64,000 nucleotides of DNA from Schizochytrium sp. TIO01 (taxonomy: Eukaryota > Sar > Bigyra > Thraustochytrida > Thraustochytriidae): contig SMSO01000036.1 of the NCBI GenBank assembly GCA_004764695.1, positions 144,001-208,000 on the forward strand. Reading direction: 5' to 3'. Of this stretch, positions 22,203 to 64,000 are shown piece after piece. The notes beneath the pieces were generated by a model. It did no database searches and was not told where the DNA came from. It worked only from the letters and a program-made list of their open reading frames with translations. The translations under genes and the position numbers were made by a program. Numbering within the stretch: position 1 is the stretch's first letter; the number at the start of each line of letters is the position of its first letter.

Positions 22203-22709
22203 TCATTTTCCAGCGGGGCGAATACGAGTGTGTTGGTAATACCCTTTCCACTTTGGTAAAGAAAATAAATTACTTGTCATGTCTTTCACAGGTGCCAGAT
22301 AATTCTGCATAGATGGCTCTAGCAGCTGCCAAGCGGGTCGCTTTCCTTTCTGAGACAAATTTTCCATTTGCTTTTTACCAGAGCTCTCATCTCGATCATC
22401 ACTCTTCATCCCTTTGTGCCCTTGAGGTTTTCTCATGGGTAACGAGCTTGTCTGGCTTGGTTTCTGTTGAGCGGATTTTACTGAGTTAGACATGTTCAAT
22501 TTTATAATTTCTTCTTCGCGTTTGTTGCCTGTAGCTACGTTCGAATTGATCTGTATATGGTCATTTTCATCTAAAGACTTAGGTTTTGTTTGAGTGGTCA
22601 AAACTACCCCATCCTTCCGTGCACCGGAGGTAGTAGCAATTGACTCTGTTTTAGACAATTTCGTGTTGTTTAAAGGTTTTAGAGACAACATCAATTTGGG
22701 GATCTCCAT
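22203..22709 (-). CDS. Second open frame overlapping the metacaspase 3' end (possible C-terminal extension)
   Basis: A 168-codon frame lies one base later than the metacaspase frame and overlaps its last 59 bases. The same frame is open further upstream within the metacaspase, so its ATG may not be a true start. The product is hydrophilic and Lys/Ser/Gln-rich for about 120 residues. It ends in an aromatic-rich segment (for example WQLLEPSMQNYLAP and FSLPKWKGYY) that looks conserved rather than random. It could be spliced onto the metacaspase by a short intron, joined because of a one-base error or frameshift, or be an unrelated frame. I see no convincing GT-AG pair that settles it. Confidence 0.35.
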   Translation of the reverse strand: MEIPKLMLSLKPLNNTKLSKTESIATTSGARKDGVVLTTQTKPKSLDENDHIQINSNVATGNKREEEIIKLNMSNSVKSAQQKPSQTSSLPMRKPQGHKGMKSDDRDESSGKKQMENLSQKGKRPAWQLLEPSMQNYLAPVKDMTSNLFSLPKWKGYYQHTRIRPAGK

Positions 22710-24927
22710 TTGAAACAGTAGGCACTGATTTTGACACAGACAAAACAGCAGATGAGGCGTACCAAGCCTCCATCCACCCTGACTTGCCAGTTTTTGCTGT
22801 TCCTAGAGTTATTTGTGGAACTTGATCCAGACCATTAATTGGATACGATGAAATCAACTGCCGCACTTGCCCTAGAAAGCTCTCCAGAGTTATAGTTTCT
22901 TCCATGTTTCCTTGCATGACCTTGCAAAGAGCCCATGTTAGCGCACCATTGCGCTGACCGTCGAATGTAGCATCCATTGAAGTCTGGTCGTCTTTGCAGC
23001 CGCTCAGCACAACAAATGACGAGCCTTGTTTAATGCGAGTGTTCACCTGCGCTCTTGAAACCAGTGTAAGCTCATTGCTTACACCTTTAAAAAATGCTCC
23101 CACAGCATGGAAGGTGGAACCTGGAGCTTGTCGGGACTTTTGCAGCTCTGACATTCGCTCAAACATTTCAGAGGACGGAGCAAGATATCTTGACTTAACA
23201 GACTTGTCATGTTGTGTACTACTTATATTGCTTTCAGTTTCGGTTTGGCTGTTTGTACCAGTTGCAACTACTTGTGATGTGCCTCGTGTTGCTCTTCGTA
23301 AAAGCTTTGCGTCACTTATGGTACCACTGTGGCAGCAGTCAAAGACTGCAGTTACATCTACGCCTTTTGGGATTTGATCAAAGAATTCCATACGCAGTTC
23401 ATCGTCGGTAATATACGATTTAGGGTTCTTTCCGTCGAAATCCATGGGTACTAGAATTTCATCAAAGCCATCCTTTTCATCCCCGTCCTCATCAGGTACT
23501 TGGCTTCCATGTCCAGAATAATGTACATAAAGAGCATCTCCGGCTACCGTACCCTCAAGTAACCAGCGAAGCCCTGCACGAATATTTTTTGACGTTGGTA
23601 ATTGCTGTTGACTGGCATTGTCTTCATCCATTAGAACACGCATCTCAGTGGTTTTGAAGCTTTGTTGAAGCAAAGTTTGGATCTTTCGAATATCGTTGTG
23701 ACATCCAGGAAGTTCTTGCTCAGATCCCGTGTACTTGATTCCAACCAAGAGTGCTCGACGTTTTGCTTTTCCTGCAGACACGGCAACGGTACCTGTTGAG
23801 CAAGTTTCAATGATATCATAAGTTGGCTTAAAAGAAAGCTGGAACGTAAGTTCGCCACAAGGTTGAACACCATGTTTGGTATCCATAAGCTCCTTAGTGA
23901 TACTTACGTCTTTATCATCCATTTTTTTGTTTTCAATTGGTGGTTCTGCAGTTGCAAGCCTCTTGACATCTCTTTCAATAACTTCGGCAACATCAATCCA
24001 CACGCAACCCATTGGTCGATTGCTTCGAATACGCATACCGTCGTAAACAGTCAGCCGCAATCCAAGGCCAAGATGCTGCCGAGCGACTGAATCAGTATCA
24101 AGACCAGGGTAAATCAATGACATTGGCGGTTCATTCCACACTGGGTGTAAGCCACCATCGACAATTGTTGATGTACGCGCCTCTATTCCCCATGGCAAAA
24201 GTTCGGCCTGCACAAATGGGTCTTCAACGCTTAATTTTGCAACCCGTCGCAGTTTGCGTGCTTCATGGACTGAAACATGCAATTGTCCTCGCATGGCTAA
24301 CGGCGACCATGGCTCAAAACACATTTCCAAGTCTATTGTACCATGCCCATCTTTGAGTGTACAAGTGGTAAGTGTCATCTTCGACGGTTGTTTCAGAACT
24401 TCTTCGAGAGCAATAAATCCTATACCAATTTTCCCCCTCTTCAAAAAGTTCTCGTCATCCCAAACCCGAACTGCAAGTCTAATTGGTCTGGTTTTTACCT
24501 TTGCTGGATTCCTACCGGGGAAGCGGAAGTATGTTGCGTTTGACCGCTGCCACTCATCAAAGTCATCATCTTTCCATACTGGGTTTATCCCTCCATGTGG
24601 GATAGTGCGTGTTCGCTGCCACTGCGATGAGCCAAGACAAATTTCCACAAGTTCTGCTTCATCGAGGGCACTTACATCCGTGTCACGTCCAAAGAACTTA
24701 TCTGAGAACTTCTGAACCAGACTTTCTTGGCGCTCGCGGGCTACAGCTTGTAAATCCTTGATACTTGCGAGAACAAGTGCAGTTTCCACGAATGGGTCTT
24801 GCTCACCTCGAATAAACTTCAAGTATTGCACATCATGCAACTTTTTGCCACTTCTAACACGAACGTTTAGTCTCCCTGGCAATGCCCAATTGATGCCTTG
24901 GGCATTGCTTGCCGCTTCGCTGGCCAT
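22651..24927 (-). CDS. C2-C2-metacaspase (type I-like, peptidase family C14)
   Basis: Metacaspases are Ca2+-dependent cysteine peptidases that cut after Arg or Lys. They act in protein quality control, clearance of aggregates and cell death in protists, fungi and plants. From the second in-frame ATG the protein has 758 residues (782 from the first). Two C2-like modules come first. C2-1 (about residues 15-200) has a long insertion, with QDPFVE, GGINPVWK and VRVWDDENF. C2-2 (about 215-345) has VEDPFVQAEL, GGLHPVWNE and LTVYDG. The caspase fold begins near 405 (RRALLVGIKY). The catalytic His lies in HYSGHGSQ (about 469) and Cys in FDCCHSG (about 530). The acidic DEDGDEKDGFDE loop resembles the known Ca2+ site. 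LSGCKDDQTSMDA marks the p10 part. There is no long p20-p10 linker, so type I organisation fits best. The C2 modules suggest Ca2+-dependent recruitment to membranes. The 3' end is uncertain because of the overlapping second frame. Confidence 0.92.
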   Translation of the reverse strand: MASEAASNAQGINWALPGRLNVRVRSGKKLHDVQYLKFIRGEQDPFVETALVLASIKDLQAVARERQESLVQKFSDKFFGRDTDVSALDEAELVEICLGSSQWQRTRTIPHGGINPVWKDDDFDEWQRSNATYFRFPGRNPAKVKTRPIRLAVRVWDDENFLKRGKIGIGFIALEEVLKQPSKMTLTTCTLKDGHGTIDLEMCFEPWSPLAMRGQLHVSVHEARKLRRVAKLSVEDPFVQAELLPWGIEARTSTIVDGGLHPVWNEPPMSLIYPGLDTDSVARQHLGLGLRLTVYDGMRIRSNRPMGCVWIDVAEVIERDVKRLATAEPPIENKKMDDKDVSITKELMDTKHGVQPCGELTFQLSFKPTYDIIETCSTGTVAVSAGKAKRRALLVGIKYTGSEQELPGCHNDIRKIQTLLQQSFKTTEMRVLMDEDNASQQQLPTSKNIRAGLRWLLEGTVAGDALYVHYSGHGSQVPDEDGDEKDGFDEILVPMDFDGKNPKSYITDDELRMEFFDQIPKGVDVTAVFDCCHSGTISDAKLLRRATRGTSQVVATGTNSQTETESNISSTQHDKSVKSRYLAPSSEMFERMSELQKSRQAPGSTFHAVGAFFKGVSNELTLVSRAQVNTRIKQGSSFVVLSGCKDDQTSMDATFDGQRNGALTWALCKVMQGNMEETITLESFLGQVRQLISSYPINGLDQVPQITLGTAKTGKSGWMEAWYASSAVLSVSKSVPTVSNGDPQIDVVSKTFKQHEIV

Positions 24928-27900
24928 TAGCTCCCGTTTCGGGGATGAGGACTTGCAATAGACAGCAATGCCTAAAGTAAAGTTAACAGAGATGTTCATG
25001 CATTCTTACAAACGTTATCAATGACTTTCTAACATGCTTCACCTTCAGTGTATAGAACAACGTTTAGGAATTCCTTTTCTTTGTATCTCTTCTTGTAATT
25101 TAAAAAATAAATAATTAATTAAAACTATTTCCTTTGTGTTTCTCAATACCTTTTTTAGATTACCTAGTATAGTATAATTAGAAAAGAACATGACCTAATT
25201 TCTTTAATTAAAAACCGTTTAATTGACTTATTAGTTTTAAAATTATTTAAATTGTTTTAAAATCATGAATGAAAATGAAAATGAAAATGAAAATGATTCA
25301 ACGGCTCTATCAAATTGTCAAATATCATAGAGCTTTTCTGCACTATGATATTTTTATCTCTCACTTTTTCGTTTTTGGCCAATCTACACTGTTTGATACC
25401 CATGATCAATTTACCACGGGCGATGGAAACCCAAATGTTTCAATAGGGTGTTAAGCCACTTGTTCGGGCAGCGTGCGACAGGCGCTGTAAATGCAAGAGA
25501 TGCCCTACTTCCCTACCTCGGCAAGCATGGATAGATGGCAGCCTTCATAACAATGTATCTGAGAAGGTCATGCTTGAAACCAAGCAAAAATCAAATTTTG
25601 AAGTTTTTCCTAAACAATCTGCATGGGGTGTCGTGACTATATAGTTTCTGCGCTCCAAAGGTTTCTGTAATAGTGAATAATTCACATTTGAATCTTGGTA
25701 AATCCCTTAGATTTATTCATGTCATTGATGAAGACATTGTCATACACCAATACTGCGCAGCCTCCTAAGATCATCACAATTTACCTTCATTTGGATTACT
25801 CTCTAAATTTAATTAGAGAATTCAAGATTTAGTCTTCAGAACAGTAGTAATATAGCTATCCCTCCAAAGCATCATTTTATGCAACCAGTAAGCCACACCC
25901 ACTGTTTTACTTGAGGCAATGTATTCAGGTCTTCATTACTTAAATTAACAAAGAATGTGTTGTGGTAGGCATTTGAGCTCATTCATGGGCTTGCTGGTAA
26001 AAAAACATCGAACATTAATCGATTCAAAACTTGGAATGAAAATGGTTGTTATAATGAACGTATTTTTTCTAGGAAGGATTTAATGCTACACCGACAGGAT
26101 TAGAAAACGAGAATTTTGCGAGGCTCGCCTCGCCGAAAAGGTTGTTCCGCGCAGAGAACAAACAAAGGAAAGTTTTATATTTAAAATTAAAAAAAAGCGG
26201 GCCTATACAAACTTTCACATTCAACAAGTAGAAAAGTAACGTCCCTCGTCCAGAATGAGATGGAGTAGTCGCCCTTTAGCGTGTGGCTCATCTCGCACTC
26301 ATTTGATGTATTTTGCCACGCATGTCACCGCCTGGCTTTCCCCGATCCAGAATATGCGTAGGTAACAGCCATCTTTCATGATGTAGCCATGGAGAAGCTT
26401 CATTAAGCAGGAGCTAGCCACTAAATATCTATTATATTGCATCACTCCTTCGAGTTTTTTTAAGTTCGTGTGTTTGTTCCACCGCTACTGGGTTTATGTA
26501 AATGAACGCCGGCGAAATCTCATGCTGGATTGTGTTTATATTTAACTTTAGGATCTTTCGACTATATTACATCCTTATAAACCGCAAAATGGGAACACGA
26601 TGTTTTGTGAAGCTAGAGATTTTGGCGCTGTATGGAAGGCGGGGGCGTCTCAGTTCAATCGAATTTCGTGCTCAAATTGAACTGATATTCAATCACACCT
26701 CCAAGATTCACTTTGTCATATTCTGATACTCTCAATGAAGCATGCTACTCATAGAAAGATACATGTTACTACTCATATGACGGTTTTGCCTGTCCATAAC
26801 GAATTAAACATTTGAATCTCATTATGTGTTGAGATGGTTTCATCTATTTGCAAGCTGCCAATAGATGATTTTATTTTATTTTCTAACACGATGCATAGCG
26901 CACTTCAGTCAGAACATAGATGCTACCCATTACAACGTGACAACTTTTGTTCTGGAGGTTCTTTAGATCAAAGCTTTGTTTATATGGTAAAACTGAAGTA
27001 AGAAAGTAATTTAAGGAGGATCATTGGGGGATGAATTGAACCGCCTTACCCTTAGATCGCTTGTGCACATGCATTTCTAGCGTTATTGGGTAAACATGTC
27101 TTTTTCGCTTCTCAATGTTACAAGGCAAACTACAAACCTCTCCGTTAAAATTTTCCTATATATATTCTTTTGTAAACAAGTAGTGCATGACACGAAGTTG
27201 GGCACCAGAAGAGGACAAACAACATCGACAATGGATTTGCATGTTGTAAGAATTGAGTGGGTATGGGATATGGTTAGCCGAATCATCTTACAAACGAACG
27301 AAGGTAAGGTTGCGAGGACATAAATCTGTGTCCACAGCAAAGAAGAAGAAACAAAATAAGAAGACTAGTATGCGAGCTCTTCTTTCCATGGGCAGTACCG
27401 TCAATGTGCATACAAGAAACTTGATTAGAATACTGGGGTTATCTTGTAATCCCACTCTTTTGTTTTGTTGTCTATTGCATATCTGTCAGAGTATGAATTT
27501 GAGTCCGATTATGCCAATGCTATATAGGGATCACGCACACGAGTATCGAATGATTGAAAATCTAATGCGCGCATACCGCCAAAACGAATGACGAAAATCT
27601 GGACACCGCCCGATGCTTTGAGGGGTCTGACAAAGTAAAGCTGTGGCCTCAGTGTTTCTGTTGCATACATTGTAAGTGCACTATAAAAGAATAAAGGATA
27701 GTATGCGCTGTAAGAATCAAAACATGAAAGCACGAGAAAGGTCGGATAAATGGTAAAGGAAGATTGCAGGAAGCTTTAGATTACGGGCGAAAATGCAGAG
27801 ATGGGGAAGAGTCGAGGGTCGGGCTCCATCGATAATGATGAAGGTGAGAAAGACAAGTAGTGCATGAAAGTGTAGTAGTGCCATCCCTTGAGTTTATGAA

Positions 27901-36700: not shown

Positions 36701-37364
36701 CGATTTACGATTTGGCGGCTTCTCAAGAAGCACGGGTAGCTAGATCATAATCTTTTCACGAAGATATTTTTGTGCGGGAGTATCTTGCGGAAAGGGATTT
36801 CCGTTCTGCGATTCGGACCAGGTGAACGTGGTTTGACGACAGAAGAGAGTGCTAGATCTAGCTCATAGAAGCGACGCAGGAGACCAGGGTAAGGCTTACG
36901 ACGCCAATCCTGCGAACTACTGTGTCGAGCAATAATTGTAGCGCGTGAAGTACCGATTAATGGCAGGACTTCGCAACGCGATTGGTCAGCAGTGTAAAAT
37001 CATAAGGTGGAAACTCCCGCCAGGACGTTGATAGTCAATTAGCCAGCAACCGAGCTGGCCGCAACACAAGGCTTTCACTCTTTCACGGCCGAGCGAGCCG
37101 GCGAGCGCCCCCGGCTGGGCGCTCTGCACTTCGTCTCTCTCGACTTGCGTTTTGAGCCGACCTTTTGATCTCAGTCAGCTTGATATTATCACACTCAGTG
37201 GATCATCTCCTTGGGCTCACTAGAACTTTAATACTTGCTCTTGAGGAACCGTTGATCAGTTTTGCGCATCATAATTGCTTGAATAACAGCAACGCGAAAG
37301 AAGACAAAACAAAACAAAAACAAAAAAAGGGATTTTTACGGAAATAAAAATAAAAATAGCCACG
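33701..37364. other. Intergenic DNA upstream of the TPS-like gene
   Basis: AT-rich DNA (34130-34680) is followed by islands of GC-rich, partly coding-like sequence. One is an ATG-started frame of 79 codons at 35154-35393 with a Leu-rich helical segment (reads LREGLKDSLLKLLPSLIAAR). Further on lie GAGC and CTGC arrays (36185-36240), TATC/TCTA repeats (36360-36395) and a TGGACC-type hexamer repeat (36647-36672). The last 700 bases should contain the promoter and 5' leader of the TPS-like gene. No gene is called. Confidence 0.5.
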
Positions 37365-40300
37365 ATGCCGTATCGTAGCTCACTAGGTCCCACAATGGAA
37401 GACGAGGCTCCGCAGCGTCGACCGCGCCTCATCATCTGCTCCAACGTTCTCCCTGTGATTCTCACTAAAAATGAACAAACCGGTATCTGGAGTGCAGAGT
37501 TCGATACTAAAAGTCTCTTTGAGGATGGACCCATGTACGTAGGCCTTCGTAACGTTGATCCCAACACTCAAGTGCTCTACATTGGCGTTCCCCGTGCTTT
37601 TATTCCAGATGGAGACCGTGGCCAAGTTACCACTTTGCTGGCAAACATGGGCTGTTACCCCGTCTACTGTGACCCTGTGCGAGCCCACAATCATTTCCAG
37701 GGCTACTGCAAGGGCATCCTTTGGCCCACTTTCCATAACGTTATCGACCTTTACGCACGTGCTGGCAAGGGAAGCAAGGTTTTTGAAGATAGCACTCAGC
37801 CAGATCCCGAGCACCAGTCGAGCAGCAAACCTGACCAGAACTGGGCGCCTGCACGCTCGTGGAGCCCCATGGAGGCAGAGGCCTGCTGGCCGGACTACTG
37901 CGCAATGCAGGGCCTGTTCTCCCGCAAGGCTGTGGAAATCTACTCTGAGGGAGACACTCTCTGGGTGCACGACTACCATCTCTTGGTTCTACCAAGTTAT
38001 CTTATTCGCAGAATCCCCAATGCTAAGATTGGCCTCTTTTTGCATGTCCCGTTCCCTTCCTCAGAAATCTTTCGTACACTGGCAACCCGTGAGGAGATTC
38101 TTCGTGCAATGCTCTGCGCTGATCATATCGGGTTTGATCTCTACGAGTACGCACGTCACTTTCTCACTGCCTGTAACCGCATGCTTGGTCTTAAATACGA
38201 GCCCAAGAAGGGCGGTGTCTTGGTGCTTCATAATCACGGCAGGGAAATCTCAATCACGTGCTCGCACATCGGATCCCACTCCTCTTTTGTCCACCGGGAG
38301 CTGGAATCTCACGAAATGCAAGCTATGGCCCGTCGCGTTGCGCTTTCACAACAGACAGCTGGCCCAATCGGAGGCAGTATGGAGCGCAGGCAAATGATTT
38401 TGGGTATCGATGAGGTTGAAGGCCTCCGCGGTCTTGGCCTTAAATTGCTTGCTTTTGATCGTCTTTTCCGAGACTACCCATATTTGCGTGACCGCGTCTT
38501 CCTGCGCCAAATTGGTCTCCGTCTTGACTCTCGCCCAGATGACTACAACCAGTGTCATGATGAGGTCCTTGGTCTGATTGCCCACATGCAACAAAAGTGG
38601 GGAAAACATTCCGTGGAGTACGAGGAGCGCGACAGTATCGACCTCGCAGAACGTCTTGCCATTATGCAGAACGCCGATGTTTATCTTAATACTTCCGTTC
38701 GCGTGGGTATCGACATGCTTCCGTTCGAGTATCTCATGGCTCGCCGCAATCCAGCTGGATGTGTGATCCTATCTGAATTTTCAGCCTGCTCTCGTGTTTT
38801 ACACGGGTCTCTGCGCGTAAACCCGTTCAAGACTAGTGCCTTGGCCGCAACCATTGAAGAAGCATTGTCCATGTCTGTGGCAGAACGCACCGCGCGCTGT
38901 GCTCGTGATCTCGAGCACATTGAACGCAACACCCTCCAAGCGTGGGCCAGCCGCATGCTCGAGGACATCAACGATGCCCACAATGACACTCGCGAGCCTG
39001 TTACCAAGTTTGGTGGTGGCTTTGGGACACGTCTTCTCATTCGCGCCAACGAGGTTCATAAGCAGCAGGAGCTCGACCATGTTGAGTTCTGCGAGTCATT
39101 CAAGTCCTCAAAGCGCCGTATTATCATTCTTGACTACAGTGGCACGCTTGTCGAGACCACAAGCATGAATATGTACATGAAGCGTGGTGGTACAGCACGG
39201 ACTTGGCACTACGAGAACGGTGGTTCCCGACGCCCCGGTGGCTGTCTGGAGACCCGTGACCCCATCTCCGACACCACTCGTGGACGTTTGATCGATCTCT
39301 GCCGTAACCGCTCCAATGTGGTTGTGGTCATGAGCTCTGACCTGCGAGACGAGCTTGCTCATGCCCTTGAAGGTATTCCTAACCTTGCTCTCATTGCTGA
39401 AAATGGGTTCGTCTTTAGAGCTCACCCTGGAGCACGCTGGGTCTCTGCGGTTGATGAGGAGGCAAGCGGTGGCGGTGACTGGTACGGTGGTAACTCGACC
39501 TCAGGCTTCTACGCGGCAGAAACTGAGCATCGCAGCACCACAAGCTCTGCAGGTGGCAGCGGAAGCGCTCACACCGACACCGATTCCATTGGCGGTGACT
39601 CCTCCGACGCGGCATCCCTCCCGGATGGAGCTCAGCACGAGATTCACGGCTGGCAGGAGTCTATTCGCAATATTATGAACAAGTACTCAAACCGTACGAA
39701 TGGTTCGTTCGTGTGGGAGAGTCCCTCTGCAGTATCTTTTAATTATGTCCTTTCGGACCCTGATTTGGGCTCGCTGCAAGCCTCTAACTTGCAGCTTGAG
39801 CTGGAGCAAGTAACCATTAGCATGCCTCTGACTGTTGAGTCAGGCAAAGGCGCCGTCACAGTTCGTCTGCGCGGTGTGAACCGTGGCACCGCTGTGCGTG
39901 AGCTGCTTGCTTACTTGGAAATGCACCCATTTACCGAGTCAGACTATTCGCCGGACCCCAAACATGCTGATGCTCACAAGTCTATTGACTTCTTGGCTTG
40001 CTTCGGTGACGACAACGAAGACGAACGTGCGTTCTCTGCTGTTAACAAATATCGTGGACAGAAGACCTCACATGTGACTTCATTCTCCGTCCGTGTAGCA
40101 AGCTCTGCCCACTCCAAGGCTAAGTACTTTGTACATGACACCGAAGAGGTCACTGAAATACTTGGAGCTCTGGTTGAGGCATCTACAACCCATAAGATTC
40201 GCCGCAACTTTAGTCAGGGTGGATTCGGTGCTGAGAACCGCAACGAGTCCAGCATCATGGGTAACTTTCGTACCAAGCAATCATATGTGACACTTTCTCA

Positions 40301-41120
40301 GCATGCTGAAAATGTCGCCAATAATGTACCCCGTGTGGACAGTGTGAAACCCCGAGCTACTTTGCCTCACACAATGTCATATGTTGCTAGCAGCGCTGAA
40401 CTCGCTGACATGTTCCAAGGTCAAGATACCATGCTCTCCTCAACGCCTTCACCAGCAACAATCCCCCCGTCTGCATCAGCCGGCCCGCCGATGGATCCGC
40501 GGCACATACCTCCTACTTCTCCTGCTCGTGAACTTGATACTGACATGGATGATGATGACTTTGCCAATGAAGATGATGCTGAAAGTGACTTTGGCGGCGA
40601 CATTGGTCAAGATCATGGCTACACCTTTGGTGATGACGATGATGATGATGATGCTGCCAATGGTGGTCCTTCTGGCGGTTATAAGAAGAACCTCAATCGC
40701 AGTACTGACGATGAGGGCGATAATGAACACACGGACGACGATGATGATGAAGGGCGTTATGGACAGGACAACCGCGTGGTGCGAGAATCATCCAATGGCG
40801 AACTGGTTGTTGTGGAAGATGGCAAGCGCAGATTGAATTCAGGAAGCCGCATGGCGTCTTCCAATGGCTCGCGATATAGTACCGATACGCTGGATTCAGC
40901 CTTCCATAAAGTCATCTTTGCGCCTGAAGAAGCTTCAGAAGTCCCTGCCAACAAGCGCCCACAGAGCGTCAAAAGCACGCCTTCACGTCGACCCAAGAGC
41001 GAATCCCAGGATGAGAGGAACCGCTTAGACGGCCATGATTTTACCAATGAAAACATCAAGCTGTTGTTGGCAGGACTTGCCGGAGCCTCTTTTACCTATG
41101 TGTTTCTGAAGTCAAGATAA
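37365..41120 (+). CDS. Trehalose-6-phosphate synthase/phosphatase-like protein, both active sites altered, C-terminal membrane anchor
   Basis: The 1251-residue protein has a GT20 (TPS) domain at about 25-555 and a HAD-type trehalose-phosphatase (TPP) domain at about 582-930. The fold is clear from LWVHDYHLLVLP, LFLHVPFPSSEIFR, DVYLNTSVRVGIDMLPFEY and GCVILSEFS. Key TPS residues differ. SNRLP is SNVLP, the GGL loop is absent, and the VDRLDYIKG segment that supplies Arg and Lys for UDP-glucose reads IDEVEGLRG (about 346). These changes recall plant class II TPS proteins, which are regulatory. The TPP motif I DYDGT is DYSGT (about 588), SGR is SSD, and the motif III Lys is Arg, while GDDNEDE remains. 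A long acidic Asp-rich linker (about 1060-1130) follows. A hydrophobic segment, LLLAGLAGASFTYVFL, sits at the extreme C-terminus and suggests a tail-anchored membrane protein. I infer a sensor or scaffold rather than an enzyme. Confidence 0.93.
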   Translation: MPYRSSLGPTMEDEAPQRRPRLIICSNVLPVILTKNEQTGIWSAEFDTKSLFEDGPMYVGLRNVDPNTQVLYIGVPRAFIPDGDRGQVTTLLANMGCYPVYCDPVRAHNHFQGYCKGILWPTFHNVIDLYARAGKGSKVFEDSTQPDPEHQSSSKPDQNWAPARSWSPMEAEACWPDYCAMQGLFSRKAVEIYSEGDTLWVHDYHLLVLPSYLIRRIPNAKIGLFLHVPFPSSEIFRTLATREEILRAMLCADHIGFDLYEYARHFLTACNRMLGLKYEPKKGGVLVLHNHGREISITCSHIGSHSSFVHRELESHEMQAMARRVALSQQTAGPIGGSMERRQMILGIDEVEGLRGLGLKLLAFDRLFRDYPYLRDRVFLRQIGLRLDSRPDDYNQCHDEVLGLIAHMQQKWGKHSVEYEERDSIDLAERLAIMQNADVYLNTSVRVGIDMLPFEYLMARRNPAGCVILSEFSACSRVLHGSLRVNPFKTSALAATIEEALSMSVAERTARCARDLEHIERNTLQAWASRMLEDINDAHNDTREPVTKFGGGFGTRLLIRANEVHKQQELDHVEFCESFKSSKRRIIILDYSGTLVETTSMNMYMKRGGTARTWHYENGGSRRPGGCLETRDPISDTTRGRLIDLCRNRSNVVVVMSSDLRDELAHALEGIPNLALIAENGFVFRAHPGARWVSAVDEEASGGGDWYGGNSTSGFYAAETEHRSTTSSAGGSGSAHTDTDSIGGDSSDAASLPDGAQHEIHGWQESIRNIMNKYSNRTNGSFVWESPSAVSFNYVLSDPDLGSLQASNLQLELEQVTISMPLTVESGKGAVTVRLRGVNRGTAVRELLAYLEMHPFTESDYSPDPKHADAHKSIDFLACFGDDNEDERAFSAVNKYRGQKTSHVTSFSVRVASSAHSKAKYFVHDTEEVTEILGALVEASTTHKIRRNFSQGGFGAENRNESSIMGNFRTKQSYVTLSQHAENVANNVPRVDSVKPRATLPHTMSYVASSAELADMFQGQDTMLSSTPSPATIPPSASAGPPMDPRHIPPTSPARELDTDMDDDDFANEDDAESDFGGDIGQDHGYTFGDDDDDDDAANGGPSGGYKKNLNRSTDDEGDNEHTDDDDDEGRYGQDNRVVRESSNGELVVVEDGKRRLNSGSRMASSNGSRYSTDTLDSAFHKVIFAPEEASEVPANKRPQSVKSTPSRRPKSESQDERNRLDGHDFTNENIKLLLAGLAGASFTYVFLKSR

Positions 41121-42101: not shown

Positions 42102-43845
42102 CGCACACAGAATCGCCTTCTCAGTCTCTTCCTAGATACGTAAAAGACCTTTGGATCACTTATTGCGCAAGAGTGTCTATCGTTTGCCTTGGTAAGTCTA
42201 CCTATGACGTCAATCGCGATTTGTTGGAGCTCTGGTGTCTCAGAAGACGGATTCGTCGAGAGCGCTCATTGACGGGTTTGAGCATTCAATTTTTAGTTTT
42301 CTCAGATTTAGGCAAAAACTGCTAGTATGTATTATTGGTTTATATAATGTGTTTTGGCCTTTATTTTTTATAATTCGAAGAGTACTTTAGCAGTAGACTA
42401 TAGTGCATGTCATTTCCCCTACAAGATCATTACACGTGAGGACAGCTTATGTTCTCCCTCTTCCAAGAAATAACGCAAAAAAATTCACTCGTTGGTGTTG
42501 CTGCGCAGATCTTCACTTCTGAGAGCGCAGTTTAGTATCCCTCCATCATCTTTTCAATTCCTAACTTCGCTCCTTTTTTTTCATCTTTTTGCCCACGTAA
42601 TTTTTAATATTTATTTATTCATAATCAATTCTTGACTCTTATTTTAATTAGAATAAATGAATAAATATATATATAAATATACATATATATAAGTAATGAA
42701 TACAGGTGCAAACTCTACCGGTGGTGGCTGCAAGACTAACCCCCTCCAGAAGTACTTCCTTTTTGGACAAGGTCGAGTCTTTGGAGATTTTGCAGTAAAA
42801 GCTGTAGGTCCAACTAGTTCGGCAAATTTCGTCAAAGAAGAAACTGAACGGTTATACATACTTACTTCCTTACTAACTGTCTTATTTCAAGCGCCGAGTT
42901 TGCAGTGGTTACTATCTGTTGCACACACTAATTACATCCATTTTGTTCTCCACGCTCCAGGCCACTCGACCTAGCTGCTGTCACAAAGCTTCAGGAACAG
43001 CACTGGCAGCGGCCTGATGTTGATCACCGTTGCAAATACTAATCAAGAAACTGTTGCAACGAAAATCATGCATTCAAGTGTTGTCACTTTTGACTAGCTG
43101 CTTCGAGCAGCAAAGAACGAAAACTCGATCGACGCCCTAAAGCGCGGAGATATCAAGTGGGGGAACTTGAATAGTGGCACCTCTGCTGATATGGGGAACC
43201 TGCTTCAAGGGACGGAATCCAACTTCAGGTAGATGAGACCGCGTAATGTAACTAGCTAACCTGCGGCCACGCTGCAACCACAAATGTCCGTTGAAAGCGA
43301 CGACCTAGATAAACTAGCACACAGTAGGCCTAGTACAGACAATAGATAAAAGCCTCTGCAAGAATATGAACGATCCAGAAGTGGAGCTGTCAGTGGTGTC
43401 TCTCATGCTCACTGACCAGAACCACGCCGCAGTATTTCAAGACGAACTCAGAGATTGATCCCACTAGCGAACCTTTCCTGCCAGGACATCCTGCTTTCAA
43501 TTGAGGTCAGCAAGCTTGGCGCTTCGGACCTTGTACTCGCGGTGCTGCGATTCATGTGGCCACTGGCGGTCCGAAGGCGCTGCGCTCATGCACGTTTAAC
43601 GTTCACAAAGGAAACCCGAACACAAACTTGCAATAGGAGTGGGGACGCTAGCCAGACCGGCCGCCCGCCAGCTCTCTTCACGCAATTCTGTTGTGTAGAA
43701 CCATCAGTAAATCACCGAAGTTGAAAAACAAGTGAGTAGGGGCTGTTGTAAAAGCAAATTGAGATCTCCTGAGGGTGCCTTATTCAATCGCAAGCTTTGG
43801 ACACGTGGCCTCGCGCAAGGCAACAACACATCCGAGTTTTCGGAT
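42102..43845. other. Intergenic DNA between the HIT and kinase genes
   Basis: Divergent promoter region of 1.7 kb, AT-rich around 42580-42690 with a TATA run. It includes a 92-codon ATG-started frame at 42696-42974, listed separately. The kinase frame is open without an ATG from 43711. The sequence CAAGTGAGTAGG at 43729-43740 resembles a splice donor, so a leader exon is conceivable. Confidence 0.45.
42696..42974 (+). CDS. Small hypothetical protein
   Basis: A 92-codon frame from ATG. The first half is Gly/Lys/Phe-containing and reads like globular protein (for example QKYFLFGQGRVFGDFAVKAV). The second half is hydrophobic (LYILTSLLTVLFQAPSLQWLL) and could span a membrane. A minus-strand frame of 71 codons overlaps it. 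No family is recognised, and it could equally be chance or part of a spliced transcript. Confidence 0.25.
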   Translation: MNTGANSTGGGCKTNPLQKYFLFGQGRVFGDFAVKAVGPTSSANFVKEETERLYILTSLLTVLFQAPSLQWLLSVAHTNYIHFVLHAPGHST

Positions 43846-45891
43846 ATGGCTGGAAGGCTGAAATTGGGGTTGGCTGATGGCTTCTTAGGTGAGCATCACG
43901 AATTAGCAAATGAAGACGAGAAGGAGCAGTCTATGCCTAGTCACCGAAGTTTCGAAAGGGGGGACTCATGTCGTTCTTCATGTGAACCACATTTCATTCG
44001 GTTGGACCTCAGCAAACTTACACAGAGTGCGCCAACTTTGCCATCTATGCGGACTGGGGACAGGATTCGTGTAAATTGGAGAGCAGCTCTCGAAGATGAT
44101 GCGTCTTGTGAAGCACTGCTTATCGATCTTGCAAAATCTCAAAATGCCCGTGAAGTGTTGACGGAACAATGTGGAAATGTTTTTCAGACACTAGGCAAAG
44201 CTCTTTCGAACCGATCAGCATCGAAGATCATTAAGAAGGCTGAACACGGATCTTCTAGGCTAGTTAACGAGCAGCAGCACGGAGTACAGAATCAACAGGA
44301 AAAGGTAGAAACAGAACCTGTACATTCTCCTCAAGAAAGTTCTCAGAACATAGGTACAGCGCCAAATATACCAGGATTGACTTTGAACCGGTTGCGGCTC
44401 TCCCTCGTCCTTCCGCAAGCAAGTAGCAGAGAAGCAACTCCACCGCCCCGAAAGGTTGAGCGTAACGATCGAGCAGCATCGATTTGCATTGCTCTGGTAA
44501 TTGAGCGACATGGGCGGGGCATCTTTACTGCGGAGGACATTCCTTGGACAGAGCTGCTACACTACTTTTGTCGTCCCGAAGTAAGGTCGCTGCGTTGGGT
44601 TCGTTGGGTGGATCAGAATATCAAAGGGGCATCAGTTTTACTCGAAATCCTCACGCCGTCGTGCCCATCTCTATATGGAGATCATCTTGGAGCTGGTAGA
44701 CATGGAATTGTTCAAAGTATCGCGGGCTCTCCTGGAAAAGCTTTGAAACGTTTTGTAGTAAAGACCCGGCGCCTTCGAAAAGAACAGATACCTCGTATCT
44801 TTAATGAAATTGCCGCATTGCGAGCTTTAACTGAGGCACAAAACAAGGACCCAATGTCTCCATGTTATGTCATTCCGTTGTCAAACTTTGGGCGTTTCAC
44901 AGACGAAGGGCGGGATATCTTCATTACTTTAGATCGGGCTCCGCTTAGCCTATGCGAATGGCGAAGGAAAGTTCAAAGTCAGAAATCTCGTAAATGGCTC
45001 GCTCAGGTTATTGCATTCTACTCTGATGTAGCTCAGGCTCTAGACTTCATTGCATCTCATGGAATTACGCACAACGATATTCGCATGGACAACATCCTGC
45101 TCGTGCCTTGCCCTAAAAAGAATGGTTATTGCAATATGAGAGCAGTGCTGGCTGATTTTGGTGAATCTTACTGCACAAATTTGTCTACTTCAAGTATGGG
45201 TGAAGTAGAGAATTTTCAATTTGAGACGCGTGGAACTGAGTGCATCATGGCTCCCGAAATGCTCACTGTATGCGATTTGAGTCGAGCTCAAGAGCGTGAA
45301 AACTTTGATCGACTTCAAACCTTTCGATGGGGTACGTCGTCACCAAGTGACGTCTGGGGTCTTGGATGCCTTATGTTTGAGATGACTACAGGAAGCTTTC
45401 TTTATGAAGAAGCTCTAACGGCCTGGGCAACATTTTTCGCACGTCTCACTCGTCAGAAAGAAGCTGATGCTCTACCATTGATTCCTGAAGAAAAAAAGAC
45501 ACAGTTCTGGGAAGCCTGCTCAAATGAAGGTCAAGCTCAAGAGATTATGTCTTTGCTTATTGTTGGAGCTCTTGAGACTGACCCTCGCCGACGTCCAACA
45601 GCAGCTGCAATGAGGGACCGAGCAAATAAATTATTGCAGGATCAAGCGCCAGAAGACCACCATGACGATGATGATGAAGATAATGCAATGACCGCAGTCC
45701 TTAGTATAGTAGGGGAAGTTACCAACAATCTTGTTTTATCCGGTGGCAACAATTTATGTCAAGAACAACTTGAAGGGGAGTTTCATTCACCTGACTCTCC
45801 GTGTACAGTCATTTCGTCCAGTGGGCTAAGCGGACCGCACGACCTTTCCTACCCAGACATGTCAAGGTCAGAAGCAGACATCCAATTTTGA
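43846..45891 (+). CDS. Protein kinase (Ser/Thr-kinase fold) with long N-terminal region
   Basis: A 681-residue protein from the first ATG. The region upstream of it is open only from a GTG. Residues 1 to about 270 are Ser/Glu/Gln-rich with no domain I can name. The kinase domain spans about 278-600: glycine loop LGAGRHGIV (near 281), VVK for the ATP-binding Lys, FNEIAAL for the helix-C Glu, ITHNDIRMDN for the catalytic loop (near 405), ADFGES (near 437), GTECIMAPE (near 468), SDVWGLG, and the closing Arg in RRRPTAAAM. The catalytic Asp and the metal-binding Asn and Asp are all present, so it is probably active. HRD is HND and the following Lys is Arg, which is unusual. An acidic DDDDEDN patch and a Ser-rich tail follow. 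Substrate and pathway are unknown. Confidence 0.88.
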   Translation: MAGRLKLGLADGFLGEHHELANEDEKEQSMPSHRSFERGDSCRSSCEPHFIRLDLSKLTQSAPTLPSMRTGDRIRVNWRAALEDDASCEALLIDLAKSQNAREVLTEQCGNVFQTLGKALSNRSASKIIKKAEHGSSRLVNEQQHGVQNQQEKVETEPVHSPQESSQNIGTAPNIPGLTLNRLRLSLVLPQASSREATPPPRKVERNDRAASICIALVIERHGRGIFTAEDIPWTELLHYFCRPEVRSLRWVRWVDQNIKGASVLLEILTPSCPSLYGDHLGAGRHGIVQSIAGSPGKALKRFVVKTRRLRKEQIPRIFNEIAALRALTEAQNKDPMSPCYVIPLSNFGRFTDEGRDIFITLDRAPLSLCEWRRKVQSQKSRKWLAQVIAFYSDVAQALDFIASHGITHNDIRMDNILLVPCPKKNGYCNMRAVLADFGESYCTNLSTSSMGEVENFQFETRGTECIMAPEMLTVCDLSRAQERENFDRLQTFRWGTSSPSDVWGLGCLMFEMTTGSFLYEEALTAWATFFARLTRQKEADALPLIPEEKKTQFWEACSNEGQAQEIMSLLIVGALETDPRRRPTAAAMRDRANKLLQDQAPEDHHDDDDEDNAMTAVLSIVGEVTNNLVLSGGNNLCQEQLEGEFHSPDSPCTVISSSGLSGPHDLSYPDMSRSEADIQF

Positions 45892-63116: not shown

Positions 63117-63304
63117 GTGATCATTTTGATTCGTATAGAGCGCAGACTACGAAAGTTATCCTTAGTTAGGCTTTCCCTAGTTATAATGGTCCACAGGTTG
63201 TTTATGTCATGTGATCATTTTGATTCGTATAGAGCGCAGACTACGAAAGTTATCCTTAGTTAGGCTTTCCCTAGTTATAATGGTCCACAGGTTGTTTATG
63301 TCAT
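63117..63304. repeat. Perfect 94-bp tandem duplication
   Basis: Positions 63117-63210 and 63211-63304 are identical over 94 bases. The unit starts GTGATCATTTTGATTCG and ends TTTATGTCAT. A third copy begins at 63305 with GTGACCATTTTC, one base different, then diverges. Perfect identity indicates a recent duplication or active homogenisation, or possibly an assembly artefact. Confidence 0.95.
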
Positions 63305-64000
63305 GTGACCATTTTCGGGCTCTTCGTTGAGAAAGTGTTGTCTAACTAAACTCTAGAATATCAACGAGATCGAGGAGTCCTAAGATGCGAAAATGCTAGT
63401 TAAAGTCGAAAAACTTAACGGAGGAAATTCAATCAAGTGGAACAAAGGGGTCTCGAAAATCGAGAGTAGGCTACATATGACATCTCAACGAGAAACAAAT
63501 CTGAGTGCAGATCTAAATAGCAGGTAAGAGCATTGGGAATGAACAAGACCCTCAAGGAGTAACAATGTGATGCCAAATTTCCGATGAAAACAAATTACAC
63601 TTCTTTAATAGGCACTTGTCTCAATTAAAATGGTGACTTGTTGCATCAGAAACCACGAAAGACTTCATTTTTTATTCGGGAAAATGGGAAACAAAGGGTC
63701 TATATTTGAAGTGCAAGGGCTTCATCGATGAAGCAAAACAAATCATATCAACAATTTACGAAGCTAGTAAGGAGATACTAGAAGTGCAATGTCTACTACG
63801 CCTTGGTGTCATGGTTTTTAATCTACAATAAATTTCTCAGAATGAGCACAAATGTGCATACGCCAACAGTACGACAAGGACAAGCGTGGACTTTTCAGAA
63901 GGAAACTCGATGTTGATATTCGACCCAAAATTAAGCAAAAGGTGATAAAACAAGTTTAAATTCTGCCCACTTCCAACGTAGCATAGAGCCGATTAAGCCG
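63305..64000. other. Right-hand end without a recognised gene
   Basis: About 700 bases of AT-rich DNA following the tandem duplication. Open frames are short, and nothing of known function is visible. Confidence 0.45.

Follow-up and report, generated by a model that had tools for sequence, protein, structure and literature searches.

The window analyzed here (G000:C35:144001-208000), a stretch of 64,000 nucleotides from the 64-Mb, 37-contig assembly of Schizochytrium sp. TIO01, contains a gene of a single open reading frame (ORF) encoding a 1251-residue protein that fuses a trehalose-6-phosphate synthase (TPS) to a trehalose-6-phosphate phosphatase (TPP) and is altered at central residues of both active sites. 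Profile searches identify a GT20 domain (PF00982, 343.9 bits, gathering cut-off 32.5) followed by a trehalose-phosphatase domain (PF02358, 111.4 bits, gathering cut-off 27), and a Pfam scan to E = 1 finds no other domain in the protein, CBM20 included. The bacterial bifunctional TPS/TPP enzymes share this domain content and order; against their equivalog model (NF011071) the protein scores 351.5 bits, below the cut-off of 634, and against the trehalose-phosphatase equivalog (TIGR00685) 62.8 bits, below the cut-off of 68.05. Structurally, both folds are retained in a predicted two-domain model (predicted local distance difference test, pLDDT, of at least 90 at 492 of 945 residues), which is the outcome of a structure prediction proposed in a preliminary description of this DNA. 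Active-site residues were assigned from an alignment of the window protein, its two paralogs in the genome, E. coli OtsA and OtsB, and 70 bacterial or archaeal TPS/TPP fusions, namely those of 80 loci with frames of 700-900 residues. The features of the gene, all on the forward strand and in window positions, are as follows.

37365..41120, forward: whole gene, ATG to TAA, with an in-frame stop upstream at 37284; 1251-residue TPS-TPP fusion, very probably a pseudoenzyme
37422..38984, forward: OtsA/Tps1-like GT20 domain (residues 20-540), with its fold retained in the model
37440..37454, forward: SNVLP (residues 26-30), Val28 at the position of OtsA Arg9 (Arg in 69/70 fusions)
37689..37706, forward: NHFQGY, Phe111 at the Tyr of OtsA Tyr76 and Candida Tyr89 (Tyr in 68/70)
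38406..38432, forward: IDEVEGLRG (348-356), Glu350 at Arg262 (Arg in 69/70) and Arg355 at Lys267 (Lys in 70/70)
38514..38528, forward: GLRLD, Asp388 at Arg300 (Arg in 69/70), a less secure assignment, with an Arg two residues on
38697..38720, forward: VRVGIDML, Val447 at Asp361 (Asp in 70/70) and Asp450 at Asn364 (Asn in 70/70), the Glu369 equivalent (Glu455) being kept
39051..40181, forward: trehalose-phosphatase domain of the HAD type (residues 563-939), with its fold retained in the model
39132..39146, forward: DYSGT (590-594), nucleophile Asp590 kept, Ser592 at the acid/base Asp (Asp in 70/70)
39330..39341, forward: MSSD, motif II SGR changed to SSD (657-659) with Ser657 kept (Arg in 70/70)
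39876..39887, forward: VNRG (838-841), Arg840 at the motif III Lys (Lys in 69/70)
40005..40025, forward: GDDNEDE, motif IV (metal site, GDDxxDE), kept in the alignment with the 70 fusions
40530..40754, forward: Asp-rich stretch, residues 1056-1130 (75 residues, 26 of them Asp and 6 Glu), modeled as disordered at low confidence
41046..41117, forward: C-terminal helix 1228-1249 with a 16-residue hydrophobic core and a Lys-Ser-Arg end, a candidate tail anchor by hydropathy and a low-confidence model

The synthase was judged by six OtsA residues whose roles we take as given (Arg9, Tyr76, Arg262, Lys267, Arg300 and Asp361), and all six are replaced in the window protein (V28, F111, E350, R355, D388 and V447). 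Candida counterparts of all of them but Arg9 are given in PMC5527307. In addition, residues 55-57 read GPM in place of GGL. Equivalents of Trp85, Asp130, His154 and Glu369 are retained. Of the 113 near-invariant columns, defined as those with one residue in at least 95% of the 70 fusions, 66 are unchanged in the window protein (46 of 81 in the synthase part and 20 of 32 in the phosphatase part). Mutational data are available for Candida albicans Tps1, in which Tyr89, Arg318 and Asp143 are reported to serve glucose-6-phosphate, the Arg280-Lys285 pair the UDP beta phosphate, and Asp379 with His171 the glucose, and in which the mutants Y89F, K285A, D379A and E387A are reported to have undetectable activity (PMC5527307). 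The window protein has Phe, Arg, Val and a conserved Glu at these four tested sites; thus, one tested change is matched exactly (Tyr to Phe) and a second tested site is altered (Asp to Val).

The phosphatase half is altered as well. An active TPP of the HAD IIB type is taken here to require a motif I DxD with its acid/base Asp, SGR, the motif III Lys and GDDxxDE. The window protein departs from this at S592, SSD and R840, although D590 and the GDD motif are kept, and it has lost four further polar columns that are near-invariant in the 70 fusions (now W784, S786, V795 and T832). Candida albicans Tps2, whose N-terminal domain structure is known (5dxf), has an active phosphatase half, whereas that of the window protein is altered. 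Likewise, 70/70 bacterial or archaeal fusions have Asp361 in the synthase and the acid/base Asp in the phosphatase, and both are lost here. Every substitution named in the preliminary description (SNVLP, GPM, IDEVEGLRG, DYSGT, SSD and VNRG) is found where it had been placed, and the alignment shows that both active sites lack residues nearly invariant in the 70 fusions. Its statement that both catalytic sites look dead is borne out, with more losses than it had named. Judged by these residues, the window protein is very probably dead both as a TPS and as a TPP.

Beyond the catalytic domains, the protein carries the long Asp-rich linker that had been described earlier. Modeled alone, residues 941-1251 have a pLDDT of 48 and are disordered, mainly with the exception of helix 1228-1249. 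This helix contains an uncharged 16-residue core, LLLAGLAGASFTYVFL, at 1233-1248, with a mean Kyte-Doolittle hydropathy of 1.91. No 16-residue window reaches this value among 3971 from both paralogs and from residues 1-1225 of the window protein, nor does any of the 70 bacterial or archaeal fusion tails; among 10000 random 30-mers of the tail's own composition, 41 do. A tail anchor was defined as one hydrophobic segment within ~30 residues of the C-terminus with none elsewhere, and a short core flanked by basic residues is the look of mitochondrial outer membrane anchors and of some tail anchors of the endoplasmic reticulum (ER). Two facts speak against an anchor. The best 19-residue window of the tail reaches only 1.46 (next best elsewhere in the protein, 0.98), short and borderline against the 1.6 of the usual 19-residue rule for membrane segments, and both paralogs lack a hydrophobic tail. 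The C-terminal helix is a putative, borderline tail anchor, somewhat more likely than not to be one. The membrane-tethered regulatory protein proposed in the preliminary description is plausible, with its anchor supported by the 16-residue core and left borderline by the 19-residue window. Short signaling motifs were also considered: matches to a 14-3-3 pattern are confined to the synthase domain, and the tail region has one AMPK-like site; neither finding is convincing.

Genome-wide profile searches (six-frame, ignoring introns, with the best candidates scored, so that absences hold for the assembly as sequenced) show that PF00982 and PF02358 each match the same three genes only: the window gene and two paralogs, here called C13 and C24 after their contigs.

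G000:C13:5550327-5554316 (L007:328-4317): C13 paralog, CBM20-TPS-TPP, 1329 residues, from profile matches
G000:C24 (L008:1148-5536), minus strand: C24 paralog, CBM20-TPS-TPP, 1462 residues, from profile matches

All three genes are intron-free. C13 and C24 each carry an N-terminal CBM20, and these are the sole two CBM20 domains found in the genome; a missed CBM20 exon upstream of the window gene was considered and discarded, since both matches belong to the paralogs. These starch-binding domains occur in a genome in which neither a glycogen phosphorylase nor a TreS (GH13) profile finds a match. Central residues are lost throughout the family: the acid/base Asp is replaced by Ser, Ala and Gly in the window protein, C13 and C24, respectively, Arg262 by Glu, Glu and Asp, and Asp361 by Val, Glu and Ser. 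The Arg9 position holds Asn in C13 and Phe in C24, and the Trp85 position Arg in both. The phosphatase nucleophile and metal motif are retained in all three. In its phosphatase half C24 keeps SGR, the motif III Lys and GDD, so that of the phosphatase motifs only the acid/base Asp is lost; it also retains all four columns lost in the window protein at 784, 786, 795 and 832. C13 scores 58.7 bits against TIGR00685, below the cut-off of 68.05. The three genes depart jointly at 21 of the 113 near-invariant columns, where a crude independence estimate predicts 5.4, and at five of these 21 all three carry the identical replacement. This suggests, from the aligned sequences, that the decay of the family may have begun before its duplications.

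The preliminary description had asked whether a second, catalytically intact TPS exists, and none was found: no PF00982 or PF02358 match in the genome is an intact TPS or TPP, both paralogs being changed at central residues as well. A degenerate scan of both strands for the coding pattern DRLD[YF]xKG also gives zero matches. At the position following DRLD this pattern admits no residue but Tyr or Phe, and it tolerates no internal intron; plant class I enzymes carry Met at that place, and such an enzyme would escape it, so the scan serves as a support to the profile searches. Other routes of trehalose metabolism gave no genome match either, including the trehalase families GH37 and GH65 and the TreS and TreT profiles (no search aimed at GT4-type trehalose phosphorylase was made), nor did glycogen phosphorylase. 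The TreS profile TIGR02456 matches in 13 of 14 control genomes (above its cut-off in 3) and is silent here, so GH13 enzymes seem, on these profile searches, to be absent from this genome or too diverged. Two scans of viral contigs found no relatives. One AMPK beta subunit gene was found, in a search for the beta subunit only (alpha and gamma were not searched). At the locus of the AMPK beta match lies an ORF on the minus strand (G000:C31, L097:1426-2637) whose frame begins MGN, a start that we take to resemble an N-myristoylation signal.

Several known systems resemble the window protein in part. The plant class II TPS proteins (Arabidopsis TPS5-11 and those of maize) are likewise TPS-TPP fusions with the UDP-glucose phosphate Arg changed to an acidic residue (E350 here) and with substitutions in the UDP-glucose and glucose-6-phosphate sites; the maize proteins are described as carrying Asp at this Arg, most class II genes as keeping phosphatase domains, and class II proteins as lacking TPS and TPP activity (PMC4203130). 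The class II likeness noted in the preliminary description is supported by the Arg-to-acidic change. Unlike most plant class II proteins, which keep their phosphatase boxes, the window protein is altered in motifs I, II and III (DYSGT, SSD and VNRG), and its acidic linker and hydrophobic tail are extras. Plants also possess active class I enzymes and TPPs, of which none was found in this genome. Plant class II proteins are reported in the cytosol and the ER and in association with SnRK1, and may hold this kinase at the ER (PMC12589705). Similar in their losses are yeast Tsl1/Tps3 and Aspergillus fumigatus TslA/TslB, in which both domains are present and both sets of catalytic residues are said to be missing, as in the window protein (PMC5405227). 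These fungal proteins are regulatory subunits, with TslA also reported to bind chitin synthase (PMC5405227, PMC9635654), and tagged TslA was seen in the cytosol (PMC5405227). In their own cells they operate together with catalytic subunits, whereas no such partner was found here. The preliminary description did not mention these fungal precedents for two dead sites.

The architecture of C13 and C24 recurs in CBM20-TPS-TPP proteins of red algae, a diatom, a brown alga and Toxoplasma, from which the window protein differs in having no CBM20. Phosphosite mutants of the Toxoplasma protein are reported to alter the share of amylopectin-stained vacuoles (PMC11414933). In one account, the fusions of stramenopiles and alveolates are placed with class II, and discrete enzymes are said to be missing from apicomplexans, dinoflagellates and ciliates, which would depend on class-II-like genes that are there read as active (PMC2935371). 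A genome that holds only class-II-type genes therefore has precedents. For thraustochytrids, a metabolic model of Schizochytrium limacinum is reported to have been unable to use trehalose until gap-filled, though growth on trehalose had been recorded (PMC4609125); glycoside hydrolase families, including those of trehalose decomposition, are said to be absent (PMC6050695); and an Aurantiochytrium transcriptome is reported to give no evidence of altered trehalose synthesis in the cold (PMC4585886). Among the literature matches listed, as judged from titles and abstract openings, none describes the window protein. TPS/TPP proteins dead at both sites are already known in fungi, so a double loss by itself is no novelty. 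Two features are uncommon: central residues of both sites are missing from all the family members found, and the window protein has a probable membrane tail.

Only just probable, in our estimate, is the account that we prefer: the window protein is a class-II-type TPS/TPP pseudoenzyme acting as a scaffold or regulator. That it has some function is argued by its retained fold; that this function would be a scaffold rather than tight sugar-phosphate sensing is argued by its changed phosphate contacts; and the AMPK beta subunit encoded in the genome also favors a scaffold. Under this account, the window protein would make neither trehalose-6-phosphate nor trehalose and would act by protein binding, its possible partners being the two CBM20-bearing paralogs and, by analogy with plant class II proteins, an AMPK/SnRK1 complex. 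The C-terminal helix could hold the protein on the cytosolic face of the ER or the mitochondrial outer membrane, and the acidic linker could serve as a flexible tether, so that partners would be brought to that membrane. C24, which keeps its phosphatase motifs except for the acid/base Asp, could bind trehalose-6-phosphate without turnover and may be a sensing partner. Unlikely is a wider reading in which the thraustochytrid TPS/TPP family consists wholly of pseudoenzymes, its three diverged paralogs forming a scaffold that links AMPK-type energy signaling to a membrane in an oil-storing cell with neither a trehalase nor a glycogen phosphorylase detected; the starch-binding domains of C13 and C24 and the membrane tail of the window protein would belong to this same arrangement, with no trehalose-6-phosphate made or removed.

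Several observations weigh against a loss of activity in this protein and its family. Measurements in Schizochytrium sp. MYA 1381 found trehalose (PMC6858700), a result hard to reconcile with an inability of the lineage to synthesize this sugar, unless the cells import it or form it by another route. Cryptosporidium oocysts are also reported to contain trehalose, their only candidate for its synthesis being a class-II-type fusion, and a yeast tps1 mutant is said to be rescued by AtTPS6, though not by other plant class II genes (PMC2935371). Class II likeness alone is therefore no proof of lost activity, and the case for a dead enzyme rests on the residues. There too, some evidence points the other way: among the four Candida Tps1 mutants, Y89F is reported to be the mildest in vivo (PMC5527307), the change of Lys267 to Arg is conservative and the Candida test at that site was of Lys to Ala only, and the Arg two residues past D388 might substitute for Arg300. 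In addition, both paralogs retain equivalents of Tyr76 and Arg300, and C24 scores 105.1 bits against TIGR00685, above its cut-off of 68.05. Lastly, a red-algal CBM20-TPS-TPP with the same Arg-to-acidic change is reported to be active on other substrates (PMC6642608).

We regard as unlikely that the window protein is itself a sugar-phosphate sensor, as the preliminary description had suggested, binding UDP-glucose, glucose-6-phosphate or trehalose-6-phosphate without turnover and signaling through its tail. Such a sensor would draw on the kept fold, nucleophile and metal motif and the kept equivalents of His154, Asp130 and Glu369, and a site with nucleophile and metal in place and the acid/base Asp lost, as in all three proteins, could trap a phosphate ligand; sensing has also been proposed for maize class II proteins (PMC4203130). 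However, most synthase-side phosphate contacts are changed in the window protein, namely the glucose-6-phosphate residues (Arg9, Tyr76 and Arg300) and the UDP beta-phosphate Arg, and the four lost phosphatase columns (784 Trp, 786 Ser, 795 Val and 832 Thr) weaken the suggestion further. C24, which keeps all four, would be the better sensor candidate.

The strongest catalytic rival, that of an active enzyme with a changed substrate, is distinctly unlikely. Its best precedent is the CBM20-TPS-TPP protein PhTPS4 of Pyropia, reported to be an active (iso)floridoside phosphate synthase of low rate even though it shows the same kind of Arg-to-Asp change as the family here and, by spacing, has a deleted Arg at the place of Arg300 (PMC6642608). 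The Cryptosporidium case can be read in the same sense, as can the equivalents of W85, D130, H154 and E369 and the phosphatase nucleophile and metal motif kept in the window protein. However, PhTPS4 is reported to keep the sugar-loop residues D562 and N565 (PMC6642608), as do 70/70 fusions at the corresponding places, whereas the window protein has V447 and D450 and thus lacks the Asp and Asn by which an (iso)floridoside-phosphate synthase was judged. A phosphatase half without the acid/base Asp would also be unlikely to complete such a pathway.

Very unlikely, in turn, is a regulatory subunit of the Tsl1/Tps3 type that activates or stabilizes a catalytic TPS or TPP. The fungal proteins do act in this company, the reported partners being Tps1 and Tps2 for Tsl1 and Tps3, and the phosphatase OrlA for TslA (PMC5405227, PMC9635654), but no catalytic partner was found and all three genes found in the genome are changed at central residues. 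Finally, that the gene is merely decaying without function, as the loss of catalytic residues in all three family members might suggest, is scarcely credible given a 1251-codon open frame, domains far above the Pfam cut-offs, high model confidence (pLDDT of at least 90 at 492/945 residues) and the 66/113 near-invariant columns kept.

Other features of the window and genome were recorded alongside the TPS-TPP gene. Downstream of it, at window positions 43732-45891, lies an ORF that encodes a protein kinase domain (64.2 bits). On the minus strand at 22651-24999, a 782-residue ORF combines C2 and caspase (C14) domains and may encode a membrane- or calcium-linked metacaspase, and a nearly perfect tandem repeat occupies 63117-63315 (94-base unit, 2.1 copies, 99% matches). 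Elsewhere in the genome, a PfaA-type polyunsaturated fatty acid (PUFA) synthase is encoded at G000:C4:608161-617209 (L094-L096), with joined matches in one frame reaching 1157.4 bits against a cut-off of 1010.1 that is reached in 0/14 control genomes. Among eukaryotes, PfaA-type PUFA synthases mark thraustochytrids, and taken with three intron-free TPS genes in a genome of 64 Mb this synthase suggests a thraustochytrid. Part of this PUFA synthase, compared with solved structures, gives two matches at E 1e-100 or better, both polyketide synthases.

The non-catalytic role of class II TPS proteins is an open question in sugar signaling, studied so far in plants and fungi that also carry active enzymes. 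A culturable, single-celled organism with only dead versions would separate this non-catalytic role from trehalose-6-phosphate itself. It would also be a caution against taking TPS annotations of stramenopile genomes as evidence of 'trehalose synthesis'.

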